Assembly (NCBI GenBank): GCA_020161755.1 | Contig: JAIUOS010000030.1 | Location: forward strand, 1 to 46,549 | Reading direction: 5' to 3' | From: Actinomycetota bacterium | Lineage (GTDB): Bacteria > Actinomycetota > Actinomycetes > Propionibacteriales > Propionibacteriaceae | DNA length: 46,549 nt | Shown here: piece after piece, positions 33,797 to 39,881 of the stretch | Layout: each line of letters begins with the position of its first letter | Numbering within the stretch: position 1 is the first letter of the stretch | The notes under the pieces: model-generated | What the model saw: the letters and a program-made list of their open reading frames with translations, nothing else | The model's database searches: none | Told to the model about the DNA's origin: nothing | Made by a program: the position numbers and the translations under genes

Positions 33797-33869
33797 GCCG
33801 CCTTAGCTCAGTCGGTAGAGCGACGCTCTCGTAAAGCGTAGGTCTGGGGTTCGATTCCCCAAGGCGGCT
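33797..33869 (+). tRNA. tRNA-Thr (anticodon CGT)
   Basis: A 73-base cloverleaf: acceptor GCCGCCT pairs with AGGCGGC, then discriminator T. D arm AGCTCAGTCGGTAGAGC; anticodon stem ACGCT/AGCGT with loop CTCGTAA (anticodon CGT, reads ACG); T arm GGGGTTCGATTCCCC. CCA is not encoded. No attachment-site repeat is seen beside it. Confidence 0.96.
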
Positions 33870-33890
33870 CCGACAGGGCCCATCGCAGGC

Positions 33891-36743: not shown

Positions 36744-36979
36744 GTACCAATGATGCCCCCGATCACCAACGCCGATCATCGTCCGCACGGACGATCCTGA
36801 GTGCGCGCTCGTGTCACCGGGACCCGGGCGGCGGTGAATTTCGTCGCTCCCGCCCGCCCCGTCCGTAGCCGCCGACGGGCCACCGATCTCGCCGCGACAA
36901 GCCACGACGCCCACCTGGACGGGCGCCGCCGGCAGTCCTCGGGTCGAGACGCAGTGTCCACCCATCGGGACTGCTGAGT

Positions 36980-37007
36980 TTGCCGGGGCCCGCGTCCGTG
37001 CTAGTTT
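36980..37007 (+). promoter_or_regulatory. Promoter of the Cys-codon leader, probably leaderless
   Basis: TTGCCG (36980-36985), a 16-base spacer, then TAGTTT (37002-37007). The A of the leader ATG (37015) lies 8 bases past the -10, exactly where transcription would start, so the leader is probably translated from a leaderless mRNA. No ribosome binding site precedes it. Confidence 0.6.
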
Positions 37008-37014
37008 CTGCGCC

Positions 37015-37095
37015 ATGTCCGGACGTCATCCCGCTCCCGCGCTGCCTGTCGGCGCGGCGGTGCAGGTGCGCGTCCAGATGTGTTGCCGGAGCTGA
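37015..37095 (+). CDS. Leader peptide with tandem Cys codons (26 aa)
   Basis: A 26-codon ORF starting MSGRHPAPALP and ending VQMCCRS, with adjacent Cys codons TGT TGC at positions 23-24. It fits the polycysteine leaderless small ORFs known in mycobacteria, which sense cysteine by ribosome stalling and control sulfur genes downstream. It lies 113 bases before a sulfonate-type ABC transporter. The Cys-codon segment TGCCGGA (37084-37090) is complementary to TCCGGCA (37134-37140) in the following hairpin. The attenuator role is inferred from composition, position and pairing. Confidence 0.75.
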   Translation: MSGRHPAPALPVGAAVQVRVQMCCRS

Positions 37096-37116
37096 CCGCG
37101 CCCGCAACCTTCCACC

Positions 37117-37204
37117 ATGCCGGGCCGTCCAGGTCCGGCATTTCGTGTCTCCGGAGCCCTGTGCGTGCCAGGCCCACAGCCCCGAACCAGCTCGCAGGAG
37201 ACAC
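37117..37204 (+). promoter_or_regulatory. Putative attenuator: hairpin plus SD-masking stem
   Basis: A 10-bp hairpin (37117-37141, one G-U pair, 5-base loop) is followed by GTGTCTCC (37145-37152), perfectly complementary to GGAGACAC (37197-37204), which contains the GGAG ribosome binding site of the substrate-binding protein gene. CTGTG/CACAG (37159-37163, 37175-37179) could stack inside. The 3' arm of the first hairpin can instead pair with the leader's Cys codons, so the structures are mutually exclusive. Polarity cannot be settled by reading. Confidence 0.6.
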
Positions 37205-37208
37205 AGCC

Positions 37209-38258
37209 ATGACGACGCACCGACCCAGACCGACCGCCGCCCTCGCGGCCGCCCTCACCGGCCTCGCGATGCTGCTCACCGGCTGCTCCGGCGCCTCCGG
37301 GGGAAAGATCGAGCAGGTCAACATCGGCTACTTCCCGAACCTCACCCACGCCCCGGGCCTGATCGCCGACGCCGAGGGCACGTTCGTCGAGAAGTTCGGC
37401 ACGCTCAACCTCAAGGTCAGCACCAAGTCGTTCAACGCCGGCCCGGACGTGATCCAGGCGATCCTCAGCGGCTCGCTCGACATCAGCTACATCGGCCCGA
37501 ACCCGACCGTGACCGCCTACATCCAGAGCCAGGGTGACGGCATCCGGGTGATCGCCGGCTCGACGTCCGGCGGTGCGTTCCTGGTGGTGAAGCCCGAGAT
37601 CACCAGTGCCGCGCAGCTGAAGGGCAGGAAGCTCGCCACCCCGCAGCTCGGCAACACCCAGGACATCGCGCTGCGGTACTGGCTGAAGCAGCAGAACCTG
37701 ACCGCCACCGAGGACGGCGGTGGGGACGTGTCGATCCTGCCGCAGGCCAACTCGGCCGCCGTGCAGGCGTTCAGCACCGGCTCGATCGACGGCGCTTGGG
37801 TGCCCGAGCCCTACGCGTCCAAGCTCGTCGCAGCCGGCGGCAAGGTGCTGGTGGACGAGAAGTCGCTGTGGCCCGACGGCCAGTTCGTCACCACCAACGT
37901 GATCGCCCGCACCGCGTTCGTCGAGCAGCACCCGGACGCCGTCCGCGCGTTCATCGAGGCCCACCTCGACGCGCTCGCCGAGATCAAGGACGACCCGGAG
38001 AAGGCGCAGGCCGACGTCGCCGGCCAGATCCAGAAGATCACCGGCCAGGAGACCACCGCGGACAGCCTCAAGGCGTCCTGGAAGAACCTGGACTTCACCG
38101 CCGACCCGCTGGCGTCGACGTTGAAGGAGTCGGCCGACCACGCCGCGGCCGTCGGGCTGCTGCCGAACAAGCCGACCGACGGCTTCGCCAAGCTGTGGGA
38201 CCTGACCGCGCTGAACGACGCGCTGACCGCCCGCGGGCAGCAGAAGGTGGGTTCGTGA
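37209..38258 (+). CDS. ABC transporter substrate-binding lipoprotein, sulfonate/taurine type
   Basis: A 349-residue lipoprotein with signal and lipobox LLTGC near 27. The mature part matches the SsuA/TauA/NrtA class: VNIGYFPNLTHAPGLIADAE, the domain-crossing segment SGSLDISYIGPNPTVTAYIQ, AGSTSGGAFLVVKP, LKGRKLATPQLGNTQDIALR and DGAWVPEPYA. The ligand is probably an aliphatic sulfonate; nitrate or another organic sulfur or nitrogen compound is possible, but the Cys leader upstream favours sulfur. GGAG at 37197-37200 is 8 bases before the ATG. It overlaps the ATPase gene by 4 bases. Confidence 0.85.
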   Translation: MTTHRPRPTAALAAALTGLAMLLTGCSGASGGKIEQVNIGYFPNLTHAPGLIADAEGTFVEKFGTLNLKVSTKSFNAGPDVIQAILSGSLDISYIGPNPTVTAYIQSQGDGIRVIAGSTSGGAFLVVKPEITSAAQLKGRKLATPQLGNTQDIALRYWLKQQNLTATEDGGGDVSILPQANSAAVQAFSTGSIDGAWVPEPYASKLVAAGGKVLVDEKSLWPDGQFVTTNVIARTAFVEQHPDAVRAFIEAHLDALAEIKDDPEKAQADVAGQIQKITGQETTADSLKASWKNLDFTADPLASTLKESADHAAAVGLLPNKPTDGFAKLWDLTALNDALTARGQQKVGS

Positions 38259-39052
38259 GCGCCCCCACCCTGGCCCCGGCCGTCCCCGAGGCTCGGGGAC
38301 GTCTGCGGCTCACCGGGATCGGCAAGACCTTCGGCGGCGAGCGTGACCGGGTGGTGGCGCTGGAGGGGGTCGATCTCGACATCCGTCCGGGCGAGTTCGT
38401 GGCCGTCGTCGGCGGCTCCGGCTGCGGCAAGTCGACGATGCTGGCGGTGGCCGCCGGGCTCGAGCAGCCCACGTCCGGCACCGTCACGGCCGCCGGCGGC
38501 GTCGCCCTGATGTTCCAGGAGAGCAACCTGCTGCCCTGGCTCACCGCGGCCCAGAACGTCGAGCTCGCCCTGCGGCTCCGGGGCGTCGACAAGGTCGAAC
38601 GCCGCGAGAAGGCCCGCGAACTGCTCGGGCGCGTGAAGCTGGCCCGGCACGCCGACAAGCGTCCGCACGAGCTGTCGGGCGGCATGCGCCAGCGGGTCGC
38701 CCTGGCCCGGGTGCTCGCGCAGGAGGCGGCGATCGTGCTGATGGACGAGCCGTTCGGCGCGCTCGACGCGATGACCCGCGACCAGATGCACGACCTGATC
38801 GAGAGCCTGTGGCTGGAGTCGGGGTTCACCGTGGTACTGGTCACCCACAACGTGCGCGAGGCGGTGCGGCTCGCCGACCGCTCGATCCTGATGGGCTCCC
38901 GCCCGGGACGGGTGATCCACACCCAGCCCAACGACCTGCCCCGGCCACGGCTGATGGACCAGGGCCCGGTGGTGGCGATGGCCGCCGACCTCACCCGACG
39001 ACTCCGCGAGGAGGTGGCCGACCATGACGACGCCGACTACTTCACGATCTGA
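38255..39052 (+). CDS. ABC importer ATPase, SsuB/TauB type
   Basis: A 265-residue ATPase. Walker A GGSGCGKSTM (near 55), Q-loop FQESNLLPWLT, signature LSGGMRQRVALARVLA, Walker B IVLMDEPFGALDAMTR and switch TVVLVTHNVREAVRLADR. The FQE.NLLPW Q-loop and PFGALD are typical of nitrate/sulfonate/taurine importers. GTG start overlaps the binding-protein stop. It overlaps the permease start by 29 bases, suggesting tight coupling. Confidence 0.9.
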   Translation: MSAPTLAPAVPEARGRLRLTGIGKTFGGERDRVVALEGVDLDIRPGEFVAVVGGSGCGKSTMLAVAAGLEQPTSGTVTAAGGVALMFQESNLLPWLTAAQNVELALRLRGVDKVERREKARELLGRVKLARHADKRPHELSGGMRQRVALARVLAQEAAIVLMDEPFGALDAMTRDQMHDLIESLWLESGFTVVLVTHNVREAVRLADRSILMGSRPGRVIHTQPNDLPRPRLMDQGPVVAMAADLTRRLREEVADHDDADYFTI

Positions 39053-39881
39053 GGACGCCGAGCAGGTCGCCGACGACGTCCCGGTCGTCCGCGAACGGCC
39101 CGACCGGTCGCGGTGGGCGCGCGGCCCGCTGCCCGTGCTGCTCGCGGTGGTGATCTTCCTGGCGGTGTGGCAGGTCGTGGTGTGGACGGGCTGGCGTCCG
39201 CAGTACCTGCTTCCCGGCCCGGTCGCCGTGATCGGCGAACTCGGCCAGCTCGCCACCCAGCCGCTGTTCTGGCAGGCGCTCGCCCGCACGCTGCTGCGGG
39301 CCCTCGTCGGGTTCGCGCTGGCGGTGGGGATCGGCACGATCATCGGCCTGGCCGCCGCGCGCTCGGCGCTGCTCCGGGCGGCGATCGGCTCGCTGGTCAC
39401 CGGCCTCCAGACGATGCCGAGCGTGGTCTGGTTCCCGCTGGCGATCCTGCTGCTCGGGCTGGGGGAGCAGGCGATCCTGTTCGTGGTGATCCTCGGCGCC
39501 GCGCCGAGCATCGCCAACGGCGTCCTCAGCGGCGTCGACCACGTGCCGCCCGCCTACTTCCGGCTCGGCAAGGTGCTGGGCGCCGAGGGCTGGCGGCTGT
39601 ACCGGTTCATCGTGATCCCCGCCGCGCTCCCGGCGTACGTGAGCGGGCTCAACCAGGGCTGGGCGTTCGCGTGGCGCTCGCTGATGGCCGGCGAACTGCT
39701 GGTCGTGATCCCCGGCGCGGTGGCGCTGGGCAACCGCCTCGCCTTCGCCCAGGAGTTCGGGGACGCCACCGGGCTGCTCGCCTACATGCTGGTGATCCTG
39801 GTGATCGGCATGCTCGCCGACCTGGGGTTCAGCGCACTCTCGCGCAACCTGCGTCGCCGCCGGGGCCTCGCCGTCCGCTGA
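39024..39881 (+). CDS. ABC importer permease, SsuC/TauC type
   Basis: A 285-residue permease with six predicted membrane segments, beginning PLPVLLAVVIFLAVWQVVVW. The EAA-like loop is EGWRLYRFIVIPAALPAYVSG. The segment TGLQTMPSVVWFPLAILLLGLGE is typical of SsuC/TauC. Its stop lies inside a short hairpin. With the two upstream genes it forms a complete importer. Confidence 0.9.
   Translation: MTTPTTSRSEDAEQVADDVPVVRERPDRSRWARGPLPVLLAVVIFLAVWQVVVWTGWRPQYLLPGPVAVIGELGQLATQPLFWQALARTLLRALVGFALAVGIGTIIGLAAARSALLRAAIGSLVTGLQTMPSVVWFPLAILLLGLGEQAILFVVILGAAPSIANGVLSGVDHVPPAYFRLGKVLGAEGWRLYRFIVIPAALPAYVSGLNQGWAFAWRSLMAGELLVVIPGAVALGNRLAFAQEFGDATGLLAYMLVILVIGMLADLGFSALSRNLRRRRGLAVR

Follow-up and report, generated by a model that had tools for sequence, protein, structure and literature searches.

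A putative cysteine-responsive leader precedes a predicted sulfonate-type importer in a Propionibacteriales genome

The window, that is, the whole stretch of 46,549 nucleotides analyzed here, is contig C30 of a 4.08-Mb genome in 61 contigs. The element under study is a short open reading frame (ORF) ending in tandem Cys codons, with the RNA structures around it, directly upstream of three genes predicted to encode an ATP-binding cassette (ABC) importer. The first of these genes encodes a substrate-binding lipoprotein of the SsuA family that matched TIGR01728 at 175.2 bits (cutoff, 163.5), in support of the sulfonate-type importer proposed in a preliminary description of the locus. Because the ATPase and permease fell under the cutoffs of the specific families listed, sulfonate is a likely, rather than a proven, substrate. 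All letters and coordinates given in that description for the named elements were correct. The features are listed below.

36980-36985, +, proposed -35 element TTGCCG, 16 nucleotides (nt) before TAGTTT; present, unconserved outside the genus, and weak
37002-37007, +, -10 box TAGTTT (TANNNT), 7 nt upstream of the ATG of the leader; spacing conserved
37015-37095, +, leader ORF MSGRHPAPALPVGAAVQVRVQMCCRS, 26 codons, ending in MCCRS; read from the sequence and conserved in importer homologues
37015-37026, +, 5' arm of helix P0, start codon to codon 4; can pair with 37070-37081 with one mismatch (arm swaps)
37070-37081, +, 3' arm of P0, the codons just before the cysteines, extending one base into the first Cys codon (arm swaps)
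37081-37086, +, two adjacent Cys codons (UGU UGC), presumed to act as the sensor, followed by Arg, Ser, and stop; kept in all seven importer leaders
37082-37108, +, helix P1, Cys and Arg codons (37082-37089) with the post-stop linker (37096-37108) (shuffles, arm swaps)
37100-37104, +, linker GCCCG (segment 2), which can pair alternatively with CGGGC at 37121-37125 in the 5' arm of P2 (arm swaps)
37117-37126/37132-37141, +, P2, a 10-bp hairpin (3:4) with one G-U pair and no U tract; conserved core
37145-37152, +, 5' arm of P3, GUGUCUCC, the anti-Shine-Dalgarno segment of this genome; unconserved in place or sequence
37197-37204, +, 3' arm of P3, GGAGACAC, holding the GGAG Shine-Dalgarno sequence (SD) of the importer gene; SD masking supported as a class
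37209-38258, +, substrate-binding lipoprotein, SsuA family, of the sulfonate-type ABC importer (TIGR01728)
38255-39052, +, importer ATPase, GTG start; profile search, below the cutoffs of specific families
39024-39881, +, importer permease (PF00528), below the cutoffs of specific families

Homologues of the binding protein were found as 17 matches in 16 of 197 family genomes (E up to 1e-60), and 15 of these could be used (L005 and L024 lacked the 5' side and were dropped). An ORF ending in CC preceded 7 of the 15 readable homologues (the window, L003, L004, L006, L032, L033, and L035) and was absent before the other 8 (L007 to L011, L034, L036, and L037); identity to the window's binding protein was 59 to 81% in homologues with a leader and 53 to 60% in those without. 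The seven leader ORFs coded for 19 to 26 residues, counted from the aligned ATG, with CC and two or three further residues at the end; an upstream in-frame GTG was open as well in L006, L032, and L033. Tandem Cys codons lay near the stop in all seven, confirming the 26-codon ORF and its Cys codons as first described. Copies from the genus ended in VRVQMCCRS or VRLQMCCRS and the others in LCCGAC or MCCGAC, with a variable N-terminal part. A DNA pattern of the Cys/stop region, allowing up to three mismatches, occurred at 20 places in 17 of the 197 family genomes. Four were exact and corresponded to the four genus copies; the remaining 16, all with three mismatches, were taken for chance because a reversed control pattern matched too.

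A wider scan covered the best 80 of 535 importer homologues, of which 79 were scanned (L058 lacked the 5' side). Ten of these had an ORF with two Cys among its last ten residues. Four were accepted, namely, those of Micropruina (L059), a Propionibacteriales metagenome-assembled genome (L063), and two Catenulispora, with L059 and L063 very probably the same records as L035 and L032. L066 was inspected and rejected, and the Cys ORFs of L060, L081, L100, L112, and L117 were taken for chance by judgement alone. In the Catenulispora homologues (L127 and L133), the leader had the form RRHVDF..CC and was located approximately 330 to 245 bases upstream of the matched region. In two relatives (L003:2917-2991 and L006:1037-1112), a tRNA-Thr(CGU) gene lay approximately 190 bases before the leader; that of the window is at 33797-33871, 3.1 kb from the leader with other genes between, suggesting a local rearrangement. 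An Rfam scan of the whole window returned two tRNAs and nothing else at gathering score, neither a known riboswitch nor any other family.

A second Cys leader, MNEPTRVVRALRNISAGSMCCAC, was found in the window's genome (G000:C13:49022-49090, recorded as L148 and L271) before a sulfite reductase-type gene. The best profile matches of this gene, to the NirA and sulfite reductase families, were below cutoff, and assignment as a sulfite reductase is favored because cysH follows it (241.3 bits; cutoff, 154). An RNA model built from the seven importer leaders (R1) gave one further match in a search of the family, in genus mate G005, upstream of a gene of the sulfite or nitrite reductase type. The reductase protein search returned 99 matches in 95 of the 197 family genomes, and 90 upstream regions were examined, including one (L173) of only 51 bases; the nine matches dropped comprised fragments and second pieces, a second copy, and a match that started within the gene. 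ORFs of 8 to 45 codons with CC near the end were present in 23 of the 90 regions, that of the window's genome included, compared to 8 of 900 shuffled regions. Some of the sulfite reductase leaders from other genera had an RRHVD or GRPHVD form, and two of these, compared with the NCBIfam Cys-rich and putative leader families, gave best E values of 0.001 and 2e-5, below cutoff.

A second RNA model (R2), spanning the Cys codons to P2 and built from 17 leaders, was run on 30 genus genomes. Eight of them accounted for all 12 matches below 1e-9, which were followed by a gap to 0.0017. Ten of the 12 were sequences in the model's own build set; the two new ones were that of G021 and an additional match in G016. 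All four genus genomes with an importer leader also had the second leader by this model. The weak R2 matches G008:C92 and G023:C88 showed no Cys leader on inspection, nor, judged by eye, did a match in G229. In the reductase leader at G021:C474:14035-14097 (L236), the RNA motif was kept, with a single Cys codon at the tandem site (by eye). The Micropruina importer adjoins cysG, a sulfite reductase-type gene, and cysN, and that of G114 adjoins cysG; these neighborhoods tie the importer to sulfur assimilation.

The promoter first proposed for the leader (TTGCCG at 36980-36985, 16 nt, TAGTTT at 37002-37007, 7 nt, and ATG at 37015) was present as written. Its -10 spacing held up, as a TANNNT box lay 7 to 8 nt before the ATG in all seven importer leaders; its -35 hexamer did not, being unconserved outside the genus in the importer leader alignment. 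A generic sigma-70 scan found nothing. Of 30 leaders of both kinds, 24 had TANNNT 6 to 9 nt upstream of the start, compared to 8 of 2,414 ATG or GTG triplets on both strands of the window, although the 24 of 30 is not an independent figure, as some starts were hand-chosen among in-frame candidates partly by this spacing. The six misses included the genome's own second leader, whose ATG is three bases further from the box. A choice-free count, taking a CC-ended ORF with the -10 spacing from any in-frame ATG or GTG, gave 19 of 90 sulfite reductase upstream regions and 0 of 900 shuffled regions. On this spacing, transcription probably starts on or next to the leader ATG at 37015, and the leader appears to be leaderless.

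Pairings in the leader RNA were evaluated by arm swaps, in which the arms of a helix were exchanged between species; native pairing better than exchanged pairing indicates that the arms changed together. The sets (15, 9, and 11 leaders) were hand-picked to thin close relatives, and the leaders share ancestry. A survey of 54 segment pairs used the same swaps, with uncorrected values. For P0, which is absent from the preliminary description and joins the start of the leader to the codons just before the cysteines, swaps were as good as native pairing in 0 of 20,000 (15 leaders), 0 of 20,000 (9 leaders), and 730 of 20,000 (the seven importers). An initial test over 27 leaders (0 of 5,000) was inflated by close relatives and gave 180 of 5,000 within importers and 242 of 5,000 within genus sulfite reductase leaders, in which the P0-type pairing begins just after the start codon. 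P0 was part of the minimum fold of 37015-37220 in the window and reached 9 to 11 expected pairs in L003, L004, L006, L033, and L035. P1 was matched by 4 of 300 shuffled linkers in the window and by 378 of 20,000 arm swaps in the importers (2,043 and 8,990 of 20,000 in wider sets).

The 10-bp hairpin P2 was present as first described and conserved. Its stem length was matched in 26 of 3,000 dinucleotide shuffles, and a CGGGC/GCCCG-type (GGGC-based) core with changing outer pairs was found in 24 of 29 leaders, a figure that carries no chance rate. Swaps of P2 were biased and not counted, since its arms had been selected by best pairing. On the importer alignment, 91.2% of the cells of P1 and P2 together were paired, and the covariation score was 0.220 versus 0.116 (0 of 500 shuffles); pairs changed on both sides and further pair types were unremarkable (120 and 211 of 500). 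No terminator pattern was found in 36750-37350, and P2 is not followed by a U tract. An alternative pairing that competes with this last hairpin was present as 2:3, between the GCCCG linker (segment 2) and CGGGC of P2 (segment 3). Swaps of 2:3 were as good in 114 of 20,000 (importers) and 122 of 20,000 (12 leaders), its values in the segment-pair survey were 0.0043 and 0.0027, and at most 29 of 300 shuffled linkers did as well in each of the seven importers. The preliminary description had instead named the Cys region as the competitor of P2, through TGCCGGA (37084-37090) and TCCGGCA (37134-37140). These segments are complementary as claimed, but as a switch pairing the native arms were no better than swapped ones (0.21 and 0.98); the supported competitor is the linker, GCCCG at 37100-37104 with CGGGC at 37121-37125.

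Further pairings of the leader were recorded. That of the leader 5' end with the 3' arm of P2 ranked high in the importer set (0.0047). The Cys-stop region showed mild covariation with the stretch after P2 (0.0065; importers, 0.025), and in the window 37086-37091 can pair with 37149-37154 (CCGGAG/CUCCGG), overlapping the anti-Shine-Dalgarno segment. In L003 and L006, GGCAACAC early in the importer coding sequence complements GUGUUGC of the leader at the Cys codons; this pairing is in the minimum free energy fold and is absent from the window.

The SD covaried with the stretch immediately upstream (0 of 4,000 swaps over 11 leaders; importers, 0.0198). Examples of such helices were GGCUCC/GGAGCC in L032 and L033 and CCACUGGG/CCCAGUG, with AGG, in L147. 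The decisive anti-Shine-Dalgarno pairing had been placed between GTGTCTCC and GGAGACAC. The complement exists, and masking of the SD is supported as a class; the GTGTCTCC segment itself is unconserved, and swaps of the segment pair to which it belongs, the stretch after P2 with the SD, gave 0.115 and 0.106. A complement as long as the window's was present in 52 of 3,000 shuffles, a modest, post hoc result. The longest perfect complements in the six other importer leaders were 6, 4, 4, 6, 6, and 0 bases, lengths that were not rare (24 to 300 of 300 shuffles). The preliminary description had let its scheme depend on conservation of both the Cys codons and the complementary segments among relatives; the Cys codons proved to be conserved and the anti-Shine-Dalgarno segment did not.

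Taken together, the comparison supports the leader, its Cys codons, the promoter spacing, P2, masking of the SD as a class, and, through arm swaps, P0 and 2:3. The best explanation, with a probability of roughly 0.56, is a cysteine-responsive leader-peptide attenuator before a sulfonate-type importer, acting on translation and induced by cysteine shortage. Transcription would start at the leader ATG, where the ribosome would also begin. With ample Cys-tRNA, the ribosome would complete the leader and depart, and the vacated RNA would fold into the successive hairpins P0, P1, P2, and P3, leaving the SD masked and the importer little translated. With scarce Cys-tRNA, the ribosome would wait on UGU UGC and hold P0 and P1 open, so that the freed GCCCG linker could compete with P2 for CGGGC. 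This competition is taken to raise importer expression, most probably at translation initiation. We infer the cysteine response, its direction, and, above all, the step from an open leader to an open ribosome binding site. The 2020 work by Canestrari and colleagues reportedly describes ribosomes stalled on the Cys tract as preventing structures that would otherwise cover the ribosome binding site.

Several results weigh against this explanation. In equilibrium folding, the unpaired probability of the window SD was 0.20 whether a ribosome masked the Cys codons, masked the stop codon, or was absent, and removing segment 3 as well produced no change, so that the doubt about polarity voiced in the preliminary description was justified. 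Segment 3 removal released the SD in one of the seven importer leaders (L003, 0.02 to 0.31 unpaired; the value also rose in L162, from 0.30 to 0.53) and lowered SD exposure in several sulfite reductase leaders, including the genome's own (L148, 0.63 to 0.17). The stall mask left P2 formed in six of the seven importers, including the window. The freed 3' arm of P2 did not covary with the stretch after P2 (0.93 and 0.69) or before the SD (0.11 and 0.48), and a cascade in which this arm would pair with the anti-Shine-Dalgarno region, which had seemed promising on visual inspection of the window and L150, failed the swap test. The same holds for the values of 0.115 and 0.106 given above for the SD and the stretch after P2, the site of the window's anti-Shine-Dalgarno segment. 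SD masking in the window was no stronger than composition predicts (11 of 60 shuffles of the preceding stretch were as low). P0 had only 1.6 expected pairs in the window ensemble to 37226 and was uneven among leaders, with single swaps as good in 26 of 52 (L032), 52 of 52 (L163), and 37 of 52 (L182). The window's leader peptide did not match the NCBIfam leader families NF042933, NF042934, and NF042936 up to E = 10. The sensor half and the SD half are thus each supported, and the link between them is unsupported in equilibrium folding. Either transcription speed, which such folding ignores, matters, or the output is at transcription.

An output at transcription, with the same cysteine sensor, has an appreciable, though minority, probability. 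Premature termination would occur at P2, or through Rho on the C-rich stretch after the stop, and a ribosome stalled on the Cys codons would avert it by letting the linker pair with the 5' arm of P2. The set of 1:2, 2:3, and 3:4 pairings has the classical attenuator layout and the right polarity, and 2:3 is among the supported pairings. Under the stall mask, the sulfite reductase leader L147 exchanged P2 (8.1 to 2.3 expected pairs) for 2:3 (1.6 to 5.9), and in the importer leader L004 2:3 rose from 0.3 to 5.5 expected pairs with P2 near 0 throughout. The weak ensemble support for P0 in the window, the position of the anti-Shine-Dalgarno segment, and the behavior of L004 make the translational attenuator, like the P0 gate considered below, slightly less probable and this alternative slightly more so. 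C exceeded G between the stop and the SD in 21 of 21 leaders, a count with no comparison regions that would weakly suit Rho, and Rho has been proposed for mycobacterial Cys leaders in the available text of an earlier survey (PMC1262725). Against this alternative stand the missing U tract and terminator pattern and the persistence of P2 under the stall mask in six of seven importers, and it leaves the covarying SD helix unexplained.

The scheme as first written, in which the pairing of the Cys region with the 3' arm of P2 and that of GTGTCTCC with GGAGACAC are decisive and mutually exclusive, appears improbable. Both pairings exist, and the free window RNA has two near-equal folds, one with P1 and P2 and the other with the Cys region paired to the 3' arm of P2, enclosing 2:3; the swap values for the latter pairing and the poor conservation of GTGTCTCC speak against assigning them the decisive role. 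Less probable still is that the conserved element is an incidental ORF or a small peptide that functions in its own right. The near-identity of the last nine residues in the four genus copies would fit such a peptide, but the N-terminal part varies, the ends differ between genera (MCCRS, LCCGAC, and MCCGAC), and the RNA arms change together.

P0 may have a separate role, which is tentative and on balance unlikely, as a gate on leaderless initiation, with the leader 5' end (in the window including the AUG) folded against the pre-cysteine codons. A ribosome stalled on the cysteines would keep the gate open, further ribosomes would load and queue, and the gate would close once the leader was cleared. 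If so, the sensing codons would govern the leader's own rate of initiation, making a self-sustaining switch. The comparative structure described here for Cys leader switches, consisting of a GC hairpin, a competing linker, an SD helix, and a further helix where the leaderless ORF begins, makes two questions testable, namely, whether the output is at translation or transcription and whether local RNA structure gates leaderless starts.

A survey of 2005 predicted Cys leaders upstream of cys genes in Mycobacterium and in Propionibacterium acnes (PMC1262725), now Cutibacterium acnes, which belongs to the same order as the window, Propionibacteriales. Leaderless Cys-rich ORFs were described in mycobacteria in 2015 (PMC4633059), and cysteine-responsive attenuation in Mycobacterium smegmatis was reported by Canestrari et al. 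in 2020 (as cited in PMC9031893, PMC9094748, and PMC13236596). Because these reports describe Cys leaders, the present case belongs with the known actinobacterial cysteine leaders, and its preliminary comparison to the mycobacterial attenuators was well founded. As far as the accessible portions of the sources go, it shares with the polycysteine leaders of mycobacteria an apparently leaderless short ORF, terminal Cys codons, a position upstream of sulfur genes, and, probably, cysteine-dependent attenuation (PMC4633059, PMC9094748, PMC9031893, and PMC13236596), and with the cys operon leaders of Mycobacterium and P. acnes Cys codons beside the stop upstream of sulfur assimilation genes (PMC1262725). 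The 2005 survey, in its available text, notes no conserved terminator hairpin in mycobacteria, whereas the hairpins here are conserved, without a U tract. A competing alternative pairing (2:3) is shared with classical intrinsic-terminator attenuators, whose U-tract terminator was not found here. The LEU element of actinobacterial leuA likewise joins leader codons to the SD region by RNA structure, as far as that text describes it, but there the Leu codon run itself pairs with the SD (PMC1262725), whereas pairing of the Cys region with the SD gave 0.19 over 11 leaders and 0.04 in the importers.

Among known leader peptide families, one Catenulispora importer leader scored 36.5 bits against NF042936 (Ms4527A family Cys-rich leader peptide; cutoff, 45) and 26.4 against NF042934 (cis_reg_atten, putative leader peptide; cutoff, 27), and the two scanned sulfite reductase leaders of the window's family scored 16.6 to 24.1; the window's own leader, unmatched up to E = 10, differs from both families. 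A literature search at the level of listings returned nothing fitting for a Cys leader before a sulfonate importer or for the leader family names. Compared to the mycobacterial polycysteine leaders, the present one has two Cys codons, comes from Propionibacteriales, and precedes a sulfonate-type importer, and it has a covarying hairpin at the leader start, P0, that goes unmentioned in the accessible parts of the literature on Cys leaders. Three things are new here: P0, the importer as a target, and the occurrence of two Cys leaders in a single genome from this group. The importer target would carry the cysteine leader switch beyond sulfate assimilation genes, to a sulfonate-type importer in Propionibacteriales.

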